Below are positions 47,407 through 55,479 of a stretch of 64,000 nucleotides of DNA, piece by piece. The notes beneath the pieces are model-generated. The model saw only the letters and a program-made list of their open reading frames with translations, searched no databases and was not told where the DNA came from. The stretch is from an uncultured Gemmatimonadota bacterium (GTDB taxonomy: Bacteria > Gemmatimonadota > Gemmatimonadetes > Gemmatimonadales > Gemmatimonadaceae), in the NCBI GenBank assembly GCA_902826615.1, contig CADEFN010000001.1, forward strand, positions 248,001 to 312,000, written 5' to 3'. Position 1 is the first letter of the stretch. Each line of letters opens with the position of its first letter. Made by a program: the position numbers and the translations under genes.

Positions 47407-47440
47407 CCGCCGCACCATGCCACAGTCTCAGGTGCGGCGG
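47407..47440. repeat. Inverted repeat at convergent gene ends
   Basis: CCGCCGCACC (47407-47416) and GGTGCGGCGG (47431-47440) form a perfect 10-bp stem around a 14-nt loop. It covers the end of the large lipoprotein transcript and of the his operon. No U-run follows on either strand, so intrinsic termination is doubtful. Confidence 0.5.
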
Positions 47441-48021
47441 TCTCCGAGGGTTCGCTGCACCTCGCGCCACGTCACCCCCAGCGCGCTCAACGCCACCATC
47501 GCGTGGTACATCAGATCCGCAGCTTCTTCGGTGGCTCGCACCGCGTCACCATCCGCGCACGCCACCGCCAGCTCCGACGCCTCTTCGCCCAGCTTTTTCA
47601 GTCGCAGGTTGCGGTTCTCCAGCAACTTCTGCGTGTAGCTCTTCTCGGTGGCGTCTGCTGCGCTGGCCTTGCGGGCCTCAATCACCTGCTGGAGCACACC
47701 TGACACATCTCCCGCCGCTCCGGGGTCACCAAAACATGACGTCGTGCCGGTGTGGCAGGCAGGTCCCGCAGGAATTACCCGTGCGAGCACGGCGTCGCCG
47801 TCGCAGTCCGGCGTCAAACTCACCACACGCTGCACATTCCCGCTGGTCGCGCCCTTGTGCCACAAGCCGCGGGTGCGAGAGTGATAGTGCATCTCACCAG
47901 TACTGATGGTGCGCTCGATTGCTTCCCGGTCCGCCCGTGCCACCATGAGCACCGCGCCGGTGCGGTGATCCTGGCATACGACGGTGACGAAGCCGCCTTG
48001 TTTGTCGAAGTCGAGGTTCAT
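47428..48021 (-). CDS. hisIE: Bifunctional phosphoribosyl-AMP cyclohydrolase/phosphoribosyl-ATP pyrophosphatase
   Basis: This 197-residue fusion has the HisI domain first (DKQGGFVTVVCQD, SRTRGLWHKGATSGN, DCDGDAVLARVIPAGPACHTGTTSCF with the zinc cysteines) and the HisE domain second (RLKKLGEEASELAVACADGDAVRATEEAADLMYH). It performs steps 2 and 3 of histidine synthesis. It is the last gene of the operon, with a 57-bp gap to hisN. Confidence 0.92.
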   Translation of the reverse strand: MNLDFDKQGGFVTVVCQDHRTGAVLMVARADREAIERTISTGEMHYHSRTRGLWHKGATSGNVQRVVSLTPDCDGDAVLARVIPAGPACHTGTTSCFGDPGAAGDVSGVLQQVIEARKASAADATEKSYTQKLLENRNLRLKKLGEEASELAVACADGDAVRATEEAADLMYHAMVALSALGVTWREVQRTLGDRRT

Positions 48022-48078: not shown

Positions 48079-48852
48079 CTATCCTGCGGCCCGGTACAGC
48101 AGGCGGCGCACCGAGTTTGCGAGCGCGGTATTTGTGGCGATGCCGTCGCCCCCATCCACGGCTCCGCCGCCACGCCAGTCGGTGTACACACCCCCGGCCT
48201 CCGTAATAATCGGGATCAACGCGGCCGCGTCCCACGGACTGAGCTTGTCATCCACCATCACCTCGGCGCGCCCGGTGGCTACCAATACATAGCCGTAACA
48301 GTCTCCCCAGGTCCGCGCGACGGCTGCCTGACGAGCCAGTGCGGCCCATCGCGGCGCGCGCTCGGGGTTGTAGCGAAAGGTGTCGTCGGTCGTGAGGAGC
48401 GTGGCTTCCTCCAACCGGGCAATGCTGGACACCTGGCATCGCACGCCGTTCAACCAGCACCCTTCACCCACCGCCGCCGTCACCAGCTCTTCTACCGCCG
48501 GACAATAGATCGCGCCGGCGAGCACCGTGTCGCCCTCGGCCACACCAATCATCGACCCCCACAGCGGTACGCCACGCACAAAGGTCTTGGTGCCGTCAAT
48601 GGGGTCGATAAACCAGCGACGCCCCTTCCCCGCCGTGTATCCGAACTCTTCGCCCAGCACCTCATCCCCGGGAAAGTGCCGCGCAATCCACCCGCGCGCG
48701 GCCTGCTCTGCCTCGCGATCGGCAATGGTCACGGGACTTCCATCACCCTTGGACTCAACCGACACGCCACGCCGATAGTACGACAGGGCAATGTCACCGG
48801 CCACACGCGCGGCATCGTGCACGGCCTGCAGCAAGAGAGCGTTTGACGTCAT
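48079..48852 (-). CDS. hisN: Histidinol-phosphatase, inositol-monophosphatase type
   Basis: The 257-residue protein belongs to the IMPase superfamily: [24 protein letters not shown] with the metal aspartates, and the [40 protein letters not shown] block. In the his operon this enzyme is the histidinol-phosphate phosphatase. It overlaps hisF by four bases. The operon HisB has only the dehydratase, so this gene is needed to complete the pathway. Confidence 0.88.
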
Positions 48853-49610
48853 GCGGCACTCCTCACGGGAATACCCCGGGCACGCATGGCGTGCTTGAGC
48901 GCACCCACGGTCGTCACGCCGTCATGCAGGATACCCGCCACCAGGGCCGCCGATGCACCCGCGGTGTGCAGCACATCGCACACATGGTCCGCATTCCCCG
49001 CCCCACCGCTCGCGACCACCGGGATCGACACGGCACTGCTCACCGCGCGGGTGAAGGCCACGTCGTACCCGTTACGTGCGCCATCGCGATCGATACTCGT
49101 CAGCAGGATTTCCCCGGCGCCGCGGCGCTCACATTCACGGGCCCACTCCACGGCGTCGAGGGCCGTCGCCTCGCGGCCGCCCTTCACATACACGCGCCAC
49201 TTTTCGCCGTCCCATTTGCCATCGATGCTCGCCACCACGCACTGCGCACCATACCGGTCGGCGCACTGCGTGAGCACCTCGGGCCGGCTGACGGCGGCAG
49301 AGTTGAGACTCACCTTGTCTGCTCCGGCTCGCAGCGCCTCGCCCACATCGTCAACACTGCGTACGCCACCACCCACGGTGAGCGGAATGAAGAGCCGCTC
49401 CGCAGTGCGTCGCACGAGGTCGAACAGGGTGCCGCGCCCATCATGCGACGCCGAGATGTCCAGGAAGACCAATTCATCAGCGCCCTCGGCCTCGTAACGC
49501 ACCGCAAGCTCCACTGGGTCGCCTACATCGCGCAAGCCGACAAAGTTGGTCCCCTTCACCACGCGACCATCCTTCACATCGAGGCATACGATCAGTCGTT
49601 TGCGCAGCAT
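48849..49610 (-). CDS. hisF: Imidazole glycerol phosphate synthase, cyclase subunit
   Basis: The 253-residue TIM barrel has [15 protein letters not shown] at the start, [40 protein letters not shown] and [13 protein letters not shown]. The catalytic aspartates (Asp11-type and Asp130-type) are visible in CLDVKDG and SIDRDG. It joins ammonia from HisH to PRFAR, making IGP and AICAR. It overlaps hisB by one base. Confidence 0.95.
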
Positions 49611-50152
49611 CAGGTCGAGCCTTCACGACGCCATGCCACACTGCCCTTGGTGGAAAACACCGCACCGCTGTCCTTGAGCGCGTCGCGAACGCAGAGGCCC
49701 ATCGCCTTGAACGCCGCCTCCACGATGTGGTGGCGGTCGCTCCCGCGCCGGACGACGATGTGCAGCGTACACTGGGCATTGTCCGCGAACGAACGCATCC
49801 AGTGATCGTAGAGTGAGCTGGGAATCGGCCCCTCGTAAAAGGGGCGCCCACCGAGGTCGAGGGCGACTTCCACGAGCGCCTCGTCCATGGGGATCACAGA
49901 ATGACCGTACCGCGCCGCGTGCGCCGGGACCACCTCCCGCACCGCTGCGCCTAACGTGATAGCCACATCCTCGATGAGGTGATGTTTCAGGTCACCTGTG
50001 GCCTGGACACGCAGCCCGACGCCCGCGTACCTGGCCCACGTCTCCAGCATGTGCGTGAGAAAGGGGACGGTGGTGGTTACTGCGACGGTGGAATCAGTGA
50101 GCGACAACTCCAGCTCGATCTGCGTTTCGCGCGTCTTGCGCTCCATTTTCAT
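49610..50152 (-). CDS. hisB: Imidazoleglycerol-phosphate dehydratase
   Basis: The 180-residue protein is the dehydratase domain only: [32 protein letters not shown], and [21 protein letters not shown] with metal-binding His/Asp. There is no phosphatase domain, in line with the separate HisN. The start at ATG 50152 overlaps hisA by four bases. It carries a CGTTAGGC copy as Leu-Gly. Confidence 0.93.
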
Positions 50153-50862
50153 TGGGCAAACTCCCCCGCGACGGCGCGCGGATCCACAGCTCCCGTGTAC
50201 AGCGCCATCCCGATCACGGCCCCGGCCACACCACGATCCTCGAGGGCCCACAGGTCACCCATCGACCCGACACCTCCGGCGGCAAACACGGGAAAGTCGG
50301 CGGCATCCACCACATCTTCCATCAGCGGGAGATCGACGCCAAGCATCTGCCCTTCCTTGTGCACGGCCGTCACCAGGAGCGCCGCCAGTGGAAGCACGTT
50401 GATCTCCTCCACCACATCGAGAATGGTGCGGTTGAGAGTGCGTTGCCATCCTTGCGTGGTGATCTTCCGCTCGCGTACGTCGGCGGCAAGGATGATCTCA
50501 CCGGGGTTGGCATGCGCAATCTCCGCCAGCCAGTCGAGGTCTTCCAGCGCGCGCGTGCCGACAATGGCGTATCGCGCTCCGGCGTCGAGCATGTCTTCCA
50601 CGGCGTCGGTGGCGCGTAGTCCCCCGCCCACCTGCACCTCAGCCGTCTGCTCGTCGAGAATGCGGCGTACCATCGATGCGTTCGCGCCCTTCTTCATGGC
50701 GGCGTCGAGGTCCACTACGTGCAGGCGTGCAAAACCCTGCTCTGCCCAATGACGCGCTGCAGCCACGGGGTCCTCCCAGCGCACTTTCTCGGTCGCATAG
50801 GATCCACCGACCAGCTGCACACATGCGCCGTCGCGCAGGTCAATCGCGGGAATCGCAATCAT
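50149..50862 (-). CDS. hisA: ProFAR isomerase HisA
   Basis: The 237-residue TIM barrel starts AIPAIDLRDGACVQLVGG and contains VQVGGGLRATDAVEDMLDAGA, ILAADVRERKITTQGW and VFAAGGVGSMGDL. It isomerises ProFAR to PRFAR by an Amadori rearrangement. It sits between hisH and hisB with ATGA overlaps both sides. Conserved aspartates (Asp9-type and Asp127-type) are present. Confidence 0.92.
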   Translation of the reverse strand: MIAIPAIDLRDGACVQLVGGSYATEKVRWEDPVAAARHWAEQGFARLHVVDLDAAMKKGANASMVRRILDEQTAEVQVGGGLRATDAVEDMLDAGARYAIVGTRALEDLDWLAEIAHANPGEIILAADVRERKITTQGWQRTLNRTILDVVEEINVLPLAALLVTAVHKEGQMLGVDLPLMEDVVDAADFPVFAAGGVGSMGDLWALEDRGVAGAVIGMALYTGAVDPRAVAGEFAQ

Positions 50863-51452
50863 CGCGCTGCCTCCTCCAGAAAAGCCCTGATGAAACGCAC
50901 CCCGGGCGCCGACGACTTCTCGGGGTGGAATTGCACGCCTACCGTATTGCCGTGGCGCACAATCGCGGGAAAGCGGTCGCCTTCGTGTTCACTCCACGCC
51001 TGCACCACACCGGCCTCAGCGCGGCAAACGTAGGAGTGGGCGTAGTAGACCTCGCGCAAATCACTCTCCTGGGCGAGATCCTCAACAGATTCGTCGAGGG
51101 AGTTCCATCCGATCTGCGGGACCGAGTGCGCGCTGAGTCGTGTCACGCGTCCGCTGAACACACCAAGCCCCGCCCCCGGGCCTTCGTCGCTGCTCTCGAA
51201 GAGCAACTGCATCCCCAGGCAGATGCCTAACGTCGGGAGTCCGGCGGCAATGTGCTCCGCCAGCAATGTTCGTTCGCGGGCAAAGTGTTCGGCCGCCGGC
51301 TCCCACGCACCCACACCCGGCAGAATGAGGGCCTGCGCATGAATTGCGGCGATGGGGTCACTGGTCACGACGGGCGTTGCACCGGCCGCCACCACCGCCT
51401 TGGTGAGGGAGTGGAGGTTGCCCACCCGATAATCGAAAATGCTCACCTGCAC
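50859..51452 (-). CDS. hisH: Imidazole glycerol phosphate synthase, glutaminase subunit
   Basis: The class I amidotransferase carries LILPGVGAW, the nucleophile loop CLGMQLLF and the His-Glu pair GVQFHPEKS. It supplies ammonia to HisF. A GTG at 51452 is preferred over GTG 51461 because AGGAG then lies ten bases upstream; the two differ by three residues. It overlaps hisC by 10 bases and hisA by four. Confidence 0.9.
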   Translation of the reverse strand: MQVSIFDYRVGNLHSLTKAVVAAGATPVVTSDPIAAIHAQALILPGVGAWEPAAEHFARERTLLAEHIAAGLPTLGICLGMQLLFESSDEGPGAGLGVFSGRVTRLSAHSVPQIGWNSLDESVEDLAQESDLREVYYAHSYVCRAEAGVVQAWSEHEGDRFPAIVRHGNTVGVQFHPEKSSAPGVRFIRAFLEEAAR

Positions 51453-52492
51453 GGCGCACACTCCTGCAGCGACGCCAGCACACGTGGCATGTCGTAAGGC
51501 AAGCCCACGCTGATACGTAGCGCGTCACCAAGGCCCGGCAGTGCCTCAAAGTGCCTGACGAGTATCCCCTTCTCGCGGAGCGCTGCACCAACAGACGCCG
51601 CACCGGGGATTGGCACAAGGACAAAGTTCGCCGCCGACGGAAGGGTGGTATATCCGGCAGCATGCAGACCGCCCACAAAGCGATCGCGTGTTGCGCACAC
51701 CTCCGCCACCTTGTCCTGGATCCATGGCAGGTCGTGCTGCAGCGCCACAAGCGCCACCTGCTCCGAGAGGGCCGGCACCGCGTAGGGGCCGCGAGCCTTC
51801 TCGAGTTCAGCAATGAGCGCGCGTTCACCCACAGCAAAACCCAGCCTGATGCCGGCCAGCCCGAAGGCCTTGGACATCGTACGCAACACCAGCATTCCAT
51901 CGCGCCCTGGCGCCTTGGCGGCGAGGTTGCTGCCGGCAAACTCGGCGTAGGCCTCGTCGACCATCACCAGACCGCGTGCCTCGTCTATCACCTTATCCAG
52001 TGTCGCGCGCTGAACCGGGGTGCCGGTGGGGTTGTTCGGTGCGCAGAGGTAGATGATGTCGGCCTCAGACGCCAGCAGCGCATCGGCGTCGGCGTCGTAC
52101 GATGCCGTGAGTCCCACCGGCACGACGCGCAGTGAGTTGGTGATGGCAAAGACCCGTGTCATCACGAACGTGGGATGCATGTGGGCAACCAGGGCACCCG
52201 GGCTGCCTAACGCGCGGAAGGTGCTGCTGAGAATTTCGTCTGAGCCGGCGCCCACCATGATCTCGTCTGGCGCCACACCGATGTACGCCGCCAGCGCGTC
52301 GCGCAGCGGGCGCGAGTACGTGGTCGGGTACCGCGAGAGGTTCACACCCGGTGCGCCAGCAAGAAAGTCGCGCACCGCGGGTGGTGTGCCGTAGGGCGAC
52401 GTGTTGTCCGCCAGCTCCAGGCTGAAGCGGGCGGCATCCACGTCATAGGCGCGAATGTCGCGATACACATCACGCAGCGGCACACGCGTCAT
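51443..52492 (-). CDS. hisC: Histidinol-phosphate aminotransferase
   Basis: The 349-residue fold-type I PLP enzyme has LADNTSPYGTPPAVRDF, NNPTGTPV, MVDEAYAEFAG and the PLP-lysine motif RTMSKAFGLAGIRLG. It turns imidazole acetol phosphate into histidinol phosphate. Overlaps hisD by four bases. It has one GCCTAACG (as Leu-Gly). Confidence 0.93.
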   Translation of the reverse strand: MTRVPLRDVYRDIRAYDVDAARFSLELADNTSPYGTPPAVRDFLAGAPGVNLSRYPTTYSRPLRDALAAYIGVAPDEIMVGAGSDEILSSTFRALGSPGALVAHMHPTFVMTRVFAITNSLRVVPVGLTASYDADADALLASEADIIYLCAPNNPTGTPVQRATLDKVIDEARGLVMVDEAYAEFAGSNLAAKAPGRDGMLVLRTMSKAFGLAGIRLGFAVGERALIAELEKARGPYAVPALSEQVALVALQHDLPWIQDKVAEVCATRDRFVGGLHAAGYTTLPSAANFVLVPIPGAASVGAALREKGILVRHFEALPGLGDALRISVGLPYDMPRVLASLQECAPCR

Positions 52493-53793
52493 GCGGGCGT
52501 CCCAAAGCCGCGGGCACTCCGCGCATGACCGTCCAGCCCCTCGGCGTCCGCAAAGATGCCCACATCTTCGGCCAGACGCGCGGCTGCCTCGGGACTCACC
52601 CGCTGCCAGGTGGTCCAGCGAATGAAGTCCTGTGTGGAAAGCCCCGAGTACGACCGGGCGAGCCCGTTGGTGGGGAGCACATGGTTGGCTCCCGTCATGT
52701 AGTCGCCAAAGGCCACCGACGTGGTTGTGCCAAGAAAGACCGTGCCGGCATGCCGGATGGTGGCGGCCAGTGCTTCGGCGTCCCGAGTGGCAATAAGCAG
52801 GTGTTCCGGCGCATAGGCGGTGGCCAATGCCGCCGCCTGTTCGCGCGAGCTGGCCACGAGCACACCACCCTGTCGTTCCAGCGCCCGTCGTACAATGGAC
52901 GCCCGTTTGGTGGCCGCCGCCTGCGCCATCAGCGACGTCTCGATGCGGTCCGCCAGTTCGCCGCCTAACGCCACCGTCACCACACAGGCCAGTTCATCAT
53001 GTTCAGCCTGGGCCACCATCTCCCGCGCGATCGCCGAGGGGTCGGCGCTGTCGTCGGCAATCACCAGCAGCTCCGACGGGCCGGCCGGTGAGTCGATGGC
53101 CACGGCACTCGACACCATCACCTTGGCCGCGGTGACATAGGTGTTCCCCGGTCCCACGATGCGGTCGACACGAGGCACGGTGTCGGTGCCATAGGCCATG
53201 GCAGCCACGGCACCGGCCCCACCAATCGCAAACACCCGATCCACGCCGGCAATGGCACACGCCGCCAGCACGCCGGCCGACGGTTTGCCTGTGCTGTCGG
53301 GCGGGGAGCAGACAATCACTTCACCGACCCCGGCCACCCGGGCGGGGATCGCTCCCATGAGCACGGAGCTGGGGTACGCGGCCTTGCCACCCGGTGCATA
53401 GACACCAACCCTGCCTAACGGCTCGGGACGGCGCCTGATGATGATCCCGGGCTCGGGTTCCACTTCGACGGCGGTCTGAATCCCCGCCTTGTGGACCGAC
53501 TCGATATTGCGCGCGGCCCGCTCGAGGGCGGCGCGCAACGCCGGGTCAACCGCCGCGAGGGCGGCGGCAATGGCCGGTTTGGGGACCTCGATGTGCGTGA
53601 TCCGCACATTGTCGTACTCACGTGCCAGCGACTTGAGCGCCGTATCTCCCTCGCGGCGCACCAGGTCGATGATGGCCGCCACGGTGTCACGCAGCAAATC
53701 GTCATCATCGGGGGTGCGGTCCAGCAGGTCGCGGCGGTCGGCCTCGGCCATATCGCTCAATTGCCCACGGAAACGCAGCGTCAGCACACTCAC
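52489..53793 (-). CDS. hisD: Histidinol dehydrogenase
   Basis: The 434-residue zinc enzyme has GPGNTYVTAAKVMVSS, the PAGPSELLVIADD segment, MVAQAEHDELA with zinc ligands, YAPEHLLIAT and MTGANHVLPTNGLARSYSG. It oxidises histidinol to histidine in two NAD-dependent steps. Two CGTTAGGC copies encode Leu-Gly here. Overlaps hisG by four bases. Confidence 0.95.
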   Translation of the reverse strand: MSVLTLRFRGQLSDMAEADRRDLLDRTPDDDDLLRDTVAAIIDLVRREGDTALKSLAREYDNVRITHIEVPKPAIAAALAAVDPALRAALERAARNIESVHKAGIQTAVEVEPEPGIIIRRRPEPLGRVGVYAPGGKAAYPSSVLMGAIPARVAGVGEVIVCSPPDSTGKPSAGVLAACAIAGVDRVFAIGGAGAVAAMAYGTDTVPRVDRIVGPGNTYVTAAKVMVSSAVAIDSPAGPSELLVIADDSADPSAIAREMVAQAEHDELACVVTVALGGELADRIETSLMAQAAATKRASIVRRALERQGGVLVASSREQAAALATAYAPEHLLIATRDAEALAATIRHAGTVFLGTTTSVAFGDYMTGANHVLPTNGLARSYSGLSTQDFIRWTTWQRVSPEAAARLAEDVGIFADAEGLDGHARSARGFGTPA

Positions 53794-54644
53794 GGCATCA
53801 ACCTCTCGATTCGGGTCACCAGGATTCCTTCGGCGCCTAACGCCTTGAGCGCGGCAATCGTGCGATAGATCGTGCTTGCCCCCACCACGGCGTGGACGGC
53901 GACATACGTACCACCATTGAGGATATCAATCACGGTCGGGCCATTGAGGCCCGGGAGTACCTCTCGCACGCGCTCCAGAGCAGCGCGTGGGACATTGGCC
54001 ATCAGGTAACGCTGTCCGCGAGCCCGCAGCACCGACTCGAGGGCCGTCACCAATTCGCGCACCGACGCATTTTCGGCTGCCAGTCCCGGTCGTGCGATGA
54101 GGTGTGCTGTCGACACGAGGATGGTTTCGAGCTCGCGCAGCCCGTTCACTTTGAGCGTCGAACCGGTCGACGTGAGGTCGACCACCACGTCGGCAATGCC
54201 AAGGTGCGGCGCCACTTCGGCCGCTCCGCTCACCGGCACCACCTCGACCGCGAGATTCCGTGATTTGAAGTGTTGAGCCGCCACCCGAGGGAATACCGTC
54301 GCCACGCGTGAGCCGGGCTTGAGATCGGCCACGCTGCGCACGTCGGCGTCGTCTCGAACGGCGACCACCAGGCGGCAGCGCCCGAATGTGAGGTCGATGA
54401 GACTTTCCAGTGTCCGGCCCGATTCCGACACCAGATCCAGCCCGGTCACCCCAAGATGCGCGGCACCGTCAGCCACGAACTCCGGGATGTCCTGGGCCCT
54501 CACAAAGATGGCCTGAAAGTCGTCGCCGAGCTGGGCTGTGAGCGCCCGGTCGCCGACCGACCTCAGTTCCAGACCTGCTTCGGCCAGGAGTTCTCGGGTC
54601 TCGTCGGCGAGTCGACCCTTGTTTGGTAAAGCTATGCGAATCAT
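53790..54644 (-). CDS. hisG: ATP phosphoribosyltransferase, long form
   Basis: This 284-residue enzyme starts RIALPNKGRLADET and contains the DLTSTGSTLK loop for phosphate binding and a C-terminal extension of about 80 residues, typical of long HisG, which does not need HisZ. It makes phosphoribosyl-ATP, the first and feedback-controlled step. ATG 54644 lies about 20 bases past an intrinsic terminator and has no clear Shine-Dalgarno. Confidence 0.92.
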   Translation of the reverse strand: MIRIALPNKGRLADETRELLAEAGLELRSVGDRALTAQLGDDFQAIFVRAQDIPEFVADGAAHLGVTGLDLVSESGRTLESLIDLTFGRCRLVVAVRDDADVRSVADLKPGSRVATVFPRVAAQHFKSRNLAVEVVPVSGAAEVAPHLGIADVVVDLTSTGSTLKVNGLRELETILVSTAHLIARPGLAAENASVRELVTALESVLRARGQRYLMANVPRAALERVREVLPGLNGPTVIDILNGGTYVAVHAVVGASTIYRTIAALKALGAEGILVTRIERLMP

Positions 54645-54655
54645 TGGTTTACGCT

Positions 54656-54688
54656 GAAAACAAAACGGCCCGTCGCAGTGACGGGCCG
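54656..54688 (-). terminator. his operon attenuator hairpin
   Basis: CGGCCCGTC-loop-GACGGGCCG is a perfect 9-bp stem with a 5-nt loop. On the minus strand it is followed by TTTTGTTTTC. It lies between the His-rich leader peptide and hisG, so it should end transcription when histidyl-tRNA is plentiful. Confidence 0.8.
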
Positions 54689-54719
54689 AGGCAGTGAAAG
54701 TCGGTACGCGCTGAACCCG

Positions 54720-54797
54720 CTAACGCACGCCGCTCCCGCCAAGGCCCAGGTGGCCGTGGACGTGATGGGCATGATGGTGGCGCGAGTACAGGTTCAT
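54720..54797 (-). CDS. hisL: His leader peptide (attenuator control peptide)
   Basis: A 25-codon frame reads ATG AAC CTG TAC TCG CGC and then HHHAHHVHGH, seven histidines within ten codons (residues 7-16), before a TAG stop. It is too short for a normal gene call. Its stop is 31 bases upstream of the terminator stem, and hisG follows. This is the leader-peptide architecture of classical his attenuation, where a ribosome stalled at His codons lets an antiterminator form. Rho-independent termination otherwise follows. A weak promoter is just upstream; no strong Shine-Dalgarno is visible. Confidence 0.8.
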   Translation of the reverse strand: MNLYSRHHHAHHVHGHLGLGGSGVR

Positions 54798-54807
54798 CGT
54801 GGGGCGG

Positions 54808-54837
54808 AACGTAGCCCGGAGGTCAGGCGGACGTCAA
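54808..54837 (-). promoter_or_regulatory. Possible his operon promoter
   Basis: TTGACG (54837-54832), an 18-bp spacer and TACGTT (54813-54808) lie 11 bases before the leader peptide ATG. The -10 match is only partial. Confidence 0.35.
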
Positions 54838-54897: not shown

Positions 54898-54917
54898 ATT
54901 GTGAATAAATTCACAAT
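54898..54917. promoter_or_regulatory. Perfect CRP/FNR-type operator
   Basis: TGTGA-ATAAAT-TCACA (54900-54915) is a perfect match to the CRP-type symmetric consensus, with arms ATTGTGAA and TTCACAAT around TAAA. It sits between the divergent his leader and the cupredoxin gene. The gene it controls is more likely the cupredoxin lipoprotein; this is inferred from distance. Confidence 0.6.
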
Positions 54918-54987: not shown

Positions 54988-55479
54988 ATGCGGTTCAAAG
55001 GATTTGCTCTCGTCGCTGGCGGCATGCTGGCGATGGCTTGCGGCGGCGGCGGCGAGACGCCCAAGACGGAAACCCCGGCTCCCGCTCCCGAAATGGCACC
55101 CGCTGCACCGGCGGCCCCGGCTGCTGGCACGGCTGCTCCGATCACCGGCACCACGCACGAGATCAAGATGGTTGGCGATGAGAAGGGCTATCGCTTTGAG
55201 CCCGCTTCCATCACCGCCAAGGCTGGTGACGGCATCAAGTTCGTCATGGTTTCCGGCGGCCCACACAACGTCGCCTTCGACGCCGCCACCATCCCGGAAG
55301 ATGTGAAGGGTCAGCTGCAGGCCAACATGCCCAACTCGACCGACTTCGCTTCGCCGATGATGATGAACGCCAACGAAGCCTGGACTGTCTCGCTCGGCAA
55401 CATCAAGGCTGGCACGTACGGCATCATCTGCACGCCGCACCTCGCCATGGGCATGAAGATGGAGCTGATCGTTCAGTAA
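54988..55479 (+). CDS. Cupredoxin (plastocyanin/amicyanin-like) lipoprotein
   Basis: The 163-residue protein has lipobox LAMAC, a Pro/Ala-rich linker and a cupredoxin domain. Copper ligands are His in GPHNVAFD, Cys and His in CTPHLAMGM, and the late Met. It is probably a small blue-copper electron carrier anchored to the membrane, with partners such as an oxidase or reductase elsewhere in the genome. GGAGG precedes the ATG, and it ends with a strong terminator, so it looks well expressed as a single gene. Confidence 0.85.
   Translation: MRFKGFALVAGGMLAMACGGGGETPKTETPAPAPEMAPAAPAAPAAGTAAPITGTTHEIKMVGDEKGYRFEPASITAKAGDGIKFVMVSGGPHNVAFDAATIPEDVKGQLQANMPNSTDFASPMMMNANEAWTVSLGNIKAGTYGIICTPHLAMGMKMELIVQ

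Follow-up and report, generated by a model that had tools for sequence, protein, structure and literature searches.

The histidine operon of this Gemmatimonadota bacterium, hisGDCHABFN-IE, appears to be controlled by ribosome-mediated transcription attenuation, a reading to which we give a probability of about 0.93. The evidence is wholly computational: a histidine-rich leader, a terminator, a promoter, the conservation of all three, the covariation of two RNA helices (1:2 and 3:4) and the complementarity of segment 2 to segment 3. From it we infer the order of events, the leaderless initiation and the response to histidine.

The leader, the terminator and the his operon

The window, by which we mean the whole 64,000-nucleotide stretch analysed, contains a complete operon of nine his genes on one strand, most of which overlap (Table 1). 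The original prediction placed hisG downstream of a hairpin, and the gene found there was indeed identified as hisG by TIGR00070; a biosynthetic operon for the cognate amino acid thus follows the leader. The predicted 25-codon leader frame, MNLYSRHHHAHHVHGHLGLGGSGVR, is also present, running over 78 bases from the ATG at 54797 to the end of its stop codon at 54720. Seven of its codons 7 to 16 are His, and the frame goes on for about ten codons beyond this run. It is a short ORF rich in codons for the very amino acid that the operon produces. All the parts of the element were where they had been expected; their strand, which had not been given, is the minus strand. When all six frames of the 64 kb were scanned, the leader site alone had at least seven His per ten codons, and simulated first-order Markov sequences of the same length gave a mean of 0.1 windows with at least six. 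Chance is ruled out because the layout is kept in relatives (see below).

Between the leader ORF and the first gene lies an intrinsic terminator. The anticipated perfect hairpin with a U-run is found at 54688-54657; it has nine pairs, eight of them G-C, and a loop of five, and is followed on its 3' side by TTTTGTTTTC. The hairpin begins 31 bases after the leader stop codon and lies 22 bases ahead of hisG, with about 12-13 bases from the U-tract to the gene. The single-fold stability of the whole leader is unremarkable (z -1.19), a measure that is hardly informative for a switching RNA.

Table 1. Position of the attenuator elements and his genes in the window.
Feature	Position	Strand	Basis
-35 element TTGACG	54832..54837	-	position-conserved promoter across relatives
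-10 element TACGTT, 18 bases from -35	54808..54813	-	promoter comparison across relatives
Inferred transcription start (~54801), 2-6 bases ahead of leader ATG	54799..54803	-	-10 position
Leader peptide frame MNLYSRHHHAHHVHGHLGLGGSGVR	54720..54797	-	sequence; kept in relatives
His-codon run HHHAHHVHGH, putative sensor	54750..54779	-	translation of leader ORF
Segment 1 (GGCC), partner of segment 2 (anti-antiterminator 1:2)	54752..54755	-	predicted fold; homologous helix covaries, 53 relatives
Segment 2 (UGGGCC), within leader ORF; predicted antiterminator partner of terminator 5' arm	54743..54748	-	MFE fold of pre-terminator transcript, ribosome on His codons; complementarity tests
Intrinsic terminator hairpin, segments 3 and 4, CGGCCCGTC-ACTGC-GACGGGCCG	54666..54688	-	hairpin scan; covariation in relatives
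U-tract TTTTGTTTT	54657..54665	-	sequence
hisG, first structural gene	53790..54644	-	TIGR00070, 213 bits (cut-off 75.75)
hisD	52489..53793	-	TIGR00069, 482.8 bits
hisC	51443..52492	-	TIGR01141, 264.8 bits, slightly below cut-off
hisH	50859..51461	-	TIGR01855
hisA	50149..50862	-	TIGR00007, slightly below cut-off
hisB (dehydratase)	49610..50158	-	HisB models, scores under cut-offs
hisF	48849..49610	-	TIGR00735
hisN-type histidinol-phosphatase	48079..48852	-	TIGR02067
hisIE	47428..48021	-	NF002747

Conservation in relatives

The comparison drew on HisG from 60 relatives and from 149 members of the class, to which 80 named loci from GTDB genomes were added. A His-rich ORF stands ahead of hisG at about 55 of the 63 Gemmatimonadota loci with HisG identity of at least 56% and enough upstream sequence (a hand count); those without one are a Gemmatimonadaceae genome and a group from another family. 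About 110 non-identical relatives, nearly all of them Gemmatimonadota plus the Myxococcaceae, share the layout. A terminator separates leader from hisG in 133 of the 141 upstream regions that have a leader, usually with the core GGCCCGTC...GACGGGCC-Un; 118 are non-identical. Most Gemmatimonadaceae keep the order His run, U-run hairpin, hisG, as do further families of the class and the Myxococcaceae, and the spacing from the last His codon to the terminator is conserved as well (median 74.5 nt, interquartile range 70-80). Aligning the regions upstream of related hisG genes, the check proposed with the original prediction, therefore shows that both the His run and the hairpin are conserved.

Covariation and the predicted antiterminator

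Unaided, RNAalifold found two helices in an alignment of 53 diverse relatives. One, 1:2, follows the His run immediately within the leader ORF and joins CGGCCC to GGGYCG; the other, 3:4, is the terminator. Across both, 98.2% of cells are paired, 8 of the 14 pairs have changed on both sides, and none of 500 shuffles matches them on any measure. Segment 2 is nearly the same sequence as segment 4 and can therefore pair with segment 3, giving the antiterminator whose prediction had been called for. This 2:3 helix is paired in 87.9% of cells, as against 29-47% when it is slid; 4 of its 9 pairs have changed on both sides, which 3 of 500 shuffles equal, although its covariation is modest (3-36 of 500 shuffles reach it). 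Given the likeness of segment 1 to 3 and of segment 2 to 4, the tests depend on one another, and the 2:3 signal cannot be fully disentangled from 1:2 and 3:4. Each leader segment is more complementary to its own terminator arm than to noncognate arms (z 5.8, a value that overstates independence since the sequences are related; none of 5000 permutations is as high), and it also beats shuffled segments. In one locus, L042, the four segments have been altered together (CCTG/CAGG/CCTGTC/GACAGG). In the source genome itself the 2:3 helix is weak, with six pairs of which one is G-U.

The reading frame of the GGGYC segment 2 behind the His run is not fixed with respect to the His codons: each of the three frames is used (65, 20 and 9 leaders), so that almost identical RNA yields the tails GPTGRG, GPDGSRR or GSRAG, while the His codons are always in frame. 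This argues for selection on the RNA rather than on the peptide tail. Taken as a model, these comparisons support a four-segment attenuator in which segment 1 comes immediately after the His codons, the 3' part of the leader ORF holds segment 2, and segments 3 and 4 form the terminator.

Modelling the stalled ribosome

For a transcript ending at the terminator 5' arm, with the ribosome stalled on the His codons, that arm is paired upstream in most leaders (mean 0.72-0.78, and 0.75-0.78 for the early His codons); the mean drops to about 0.42 once the ribosome has passed. Once the full terminator has been made, it wins at equilibrium in the majority of leaders, wherever the ribosome stands, and the proven E. 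coli his attenuator behaves in the same way in this calculation. The equilibrium probability of the terminator was tried as a test of switching and dropped, the E. coli control giving 1.00 at every position. As the terminator wins at equilibrium even in E. coli, the decision of the switch must be kinetic. For the source transcript with a stalled ribosome, the minimum free energy fold (-32.1 kcal/mol) forms a long antiterminator with UGGGCC:GGCCCG as its closing helix; as the ribosome advances this antiterminator is lost, the energy going to -5.2 with the ribosome at the stop codon. In the source sequence the ribosome states cannot be told apart by pairing probabilities alone, and support for the antiterminator there comes from the homologues. 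An antiterminator that excludes the terminator according to ribosome position is thus found across the relatives and is weak in the source sequence.

On this basis, a sigma-70-type promoter would begin transcription no more than a few bases from the leader ATG, and a ribosome would load on the 5' end of the mRNA. When charged tRNA-His is scarce the ribosome would stall in the His run, covering segment 1 or leaving segment 2 free, and free segment 2 would pair with segment 3 while segment 4 has yet to be transcribed, allowing read-through into hisG. When histidine is plentiful the ribosome would reach the stop codon over segment 2, and the 3:4 terminator would end transcription before hisG. With no translation, helices 1:2 and 3:4 would both form, and transcription should end as well.

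A predicted promoter next to the leader start codon

The comparison of relatives reveals a promoter of the form TTGAC-N17/18-TA(G/C)NTT upstream of the leader start, scoring at least 11.5 in 115 of 116 relatives and in 27% of shuffles; it was absent from our consensus scan because the threshold there was 9 of 12. In 100 of the 115 leaders the start codon follows the end of the -10 element by 5-10 bases, most commonly 6-7, and in the source genome by 10. Transcription usually starts 6-8 bases from the -10 element. With the -10 so near the start codon, the 5' UTR would have from zero to a few bases, and the leader mRNA is probably leaderless. This spacing would place the 5' end of the transcript at or very near the leader ATG, upstream of the hairpin. 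Comparing Shine-Dalgarno matches did not settle the matter, since even hisG frequently lacks a good one.

Alternative explanations

It could be argued that the terminator is constitutive and merely damps hisG, the His-rich ORF being translated yet uncoupled from it, and the fact that equilibrium favours the terminator in nearly all leaders is in keeping with this. Such a terminator would, however, leave unexplained the conserved antiterminator complementarity, a segment 2 that is conserved regardless of frame, the conserved spacing from His codons to terminator, and an amino acid that is cognate (His before hisG); we consider it very unlikely. Just as improbable, in our judgement, is that hisG is governed in some other way and the leader is incidental, either by a hairpin that hides the start of translation, or by a T-box or a DNA-binding repressor. 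The 22-base distance of the hairpin from hisG in the source genome would suit the first of these, but among the relatives that distance ranges from 8 to more than 100 bases, which is unsuited to masking a start site, and the U-run is conserved. T-boxes and HisR do control his genes elsewhere, according to excerpts of PMC9413887, but the 64-kb window has no Rfam match of any kind.

His-rich peptides bind metals, and a divergent gene for a plastocyanin-like cupredoxin lies upstream, on the plus strand with its start near 54988. The leader might then be a functional metal-binding peptide and not a sensor, but its tails vary freely in frame and sequence, the His run is its sole conserved feature, and that run always precedes hisG and a terminator. 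This we find scarcely credible, even less so than the other two, and ribosome-mediated attenuation remains the reading that we prefer.

Comparison with known attenuators

With the enteric his attenuator (hisL of E. coli and Salmonella, RF00514) the Gemmatimonadota element shares a His-rich ORF containing seven His codons, RNA segments that can pair in alternative ways, and an intrinsic terminator just before hisG. It differs in that its antiterminator segment is part of the leader ORF, which extends about ten codons past the His run, and in that the promoter abuts the leader start codon. The RF00514 model has no match in the window, either at its gathering cut-off or at E values up to 10, and none in six relatives, while the E. 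coli control scores 131.6 bits. The original prediction of a his attenuator with the layout known from enteric bacteria is supported, with some corrections: the model of the enteric RNA family does not match, the antiterminator segment is within the leader ORF and, unlike the enteric one, the leader is probably leaderless.

Attenuators for his genes have been described in Proteobacteria and some Firmicutes, according to excerpts of PMC9413887. Those of the Firmicutes (Bacillus cereus group, Peptostreptococcaceae, Erysipelotrichales) likewise have a predicted His leader, terminator and antiterminator, but they belong to another phylum and have three to five consecutive His codons, and the same excerpts make no claim of leaderless initiation for them (PMC9413887). 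A leaderless leader peptide is known from trpL of Sinorhizobium meliloti, where the 5' end of the attenuator RNA, rnTrpL, was shown experimentally to be the leader ATG; the likeness is to a Gemmatimonadota start predicted from promoter spacing, and trpL is a Trp leader before trpE(G) in an alphaproteobacterium (PMC7298713). Searches on attenuation in Gemmatimonadetes, Gemmatimonas and Myxococcota, and on Myxococcus histidine, gave nothing relevant in a literature from which subscription papers were mostly absent; no earlier description was found within it, an absence of evidence that is in keeping with the surmise that such control is little described in this lineage.

Distribution and possible transfer

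A covariance model built for the element, R1, has a single strong match in the source genome (79.5 bits, the next being 16.7), and the terminator pattern also occurs there once; nothing here speaks for more than one such switch in the genome. Across the phylum R1 has matches in 92 of 200 genomes (E <= 0.01), some weak ones being other elements or chance, and in the Myxococcaceae it matches five of five genomes at 63-74 bits. The myxococcal loci (L093-L139) have a GTG-started leader, VRSxSVHHHHAHHRPxxDGTVRRAHAWV. In the HisG tree, for which myxococcal sequences were chosen by similarity and one of which (L129) may be a binning error, the Myxococcaceae branch at two or more points inside the clade of the Gemmatimonadaceae (99/99). 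This position suggests, as far as the sequences go, that operon and attenuator were transferred together from Gemmatimonadaceae to Myxococcaceae. Three MAG contigs labelled Eisenbacteria or Kuenenia (L100, L113, L157) also carry a Gemmatimonadaceae-type hisG with its leader; they are probably mislabelled or mis-binned.

Other leaders and neighbouring elements

Several other leaders and one neighbouring element were seen. In some Gemmatimonadaceae, short Tyr/Phe-rich ORFs with a promoter near the start codon (L221/L235, L238, L242/L222, L245 and L231; for example MTRAQSYAYYYYYTTHTTGRSWRTR and MNRDPRSYAYYYRTARSTGRERRRMRG) occur, and DAHP synthase was identified downstream at the loci other than L231; judging by their sequences they are probably aromatic attenuators of the same style. 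At L230 (G135:C128, minus strand, ~286-360 of the reversed locus) a candidate Thr-run leader, MSALITTTTTTTTGRTTGLGAACVD, lies upstream of thrS (TIGR00418), and its DNA is His-rich if read in another frame. A scan of the regions upstream of thrS and leuA in 30 relatives gave no convincing leader; L230 comes from a different genome. A second His leader, MISVTAHPHHHVHHTPRTGRVVVGVGA, at L216 (G114:C210, ~276-359), precedes a hisC-like aminotransferase about 9 kb from hisG on the same contig. Finally, the interval that separates the his promoter of the source genome from the divergent cupredoxin gene holds a perfect palindrome, TTGTGAATAAATTCACAA (54899-54916), occurring once in the window; it looks like a putative repressor operator, perhaps Rex- or CRP/FNR-like.

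Perhaps there is a phylum-wide class of leaderless attenuators, whose His module moved with the operon to the Myxococcaceae and was re-coded for other amino acids (Tyr/Phe before DAHP synthase, Thr before thrS), but we put this forward tentatively and would sooner bet against it.

Implications

Attenuation of his genes by a leader peptide is extended by these results to the Gemmatimonadota and the Myxococcaceae, and about 110 small ORFs that gene finders have missed are now available to them. If the operon did cross from one phylum to another together with its RNA switch, it would be a neat example of a regulatory RNA travelling along with the genes that it controls. The leaderless start, if it too is true, would mean that ribosome-mediated attenuation operates throughout a bacterial class without a leader led by a Shine-Dalgarno sequence.
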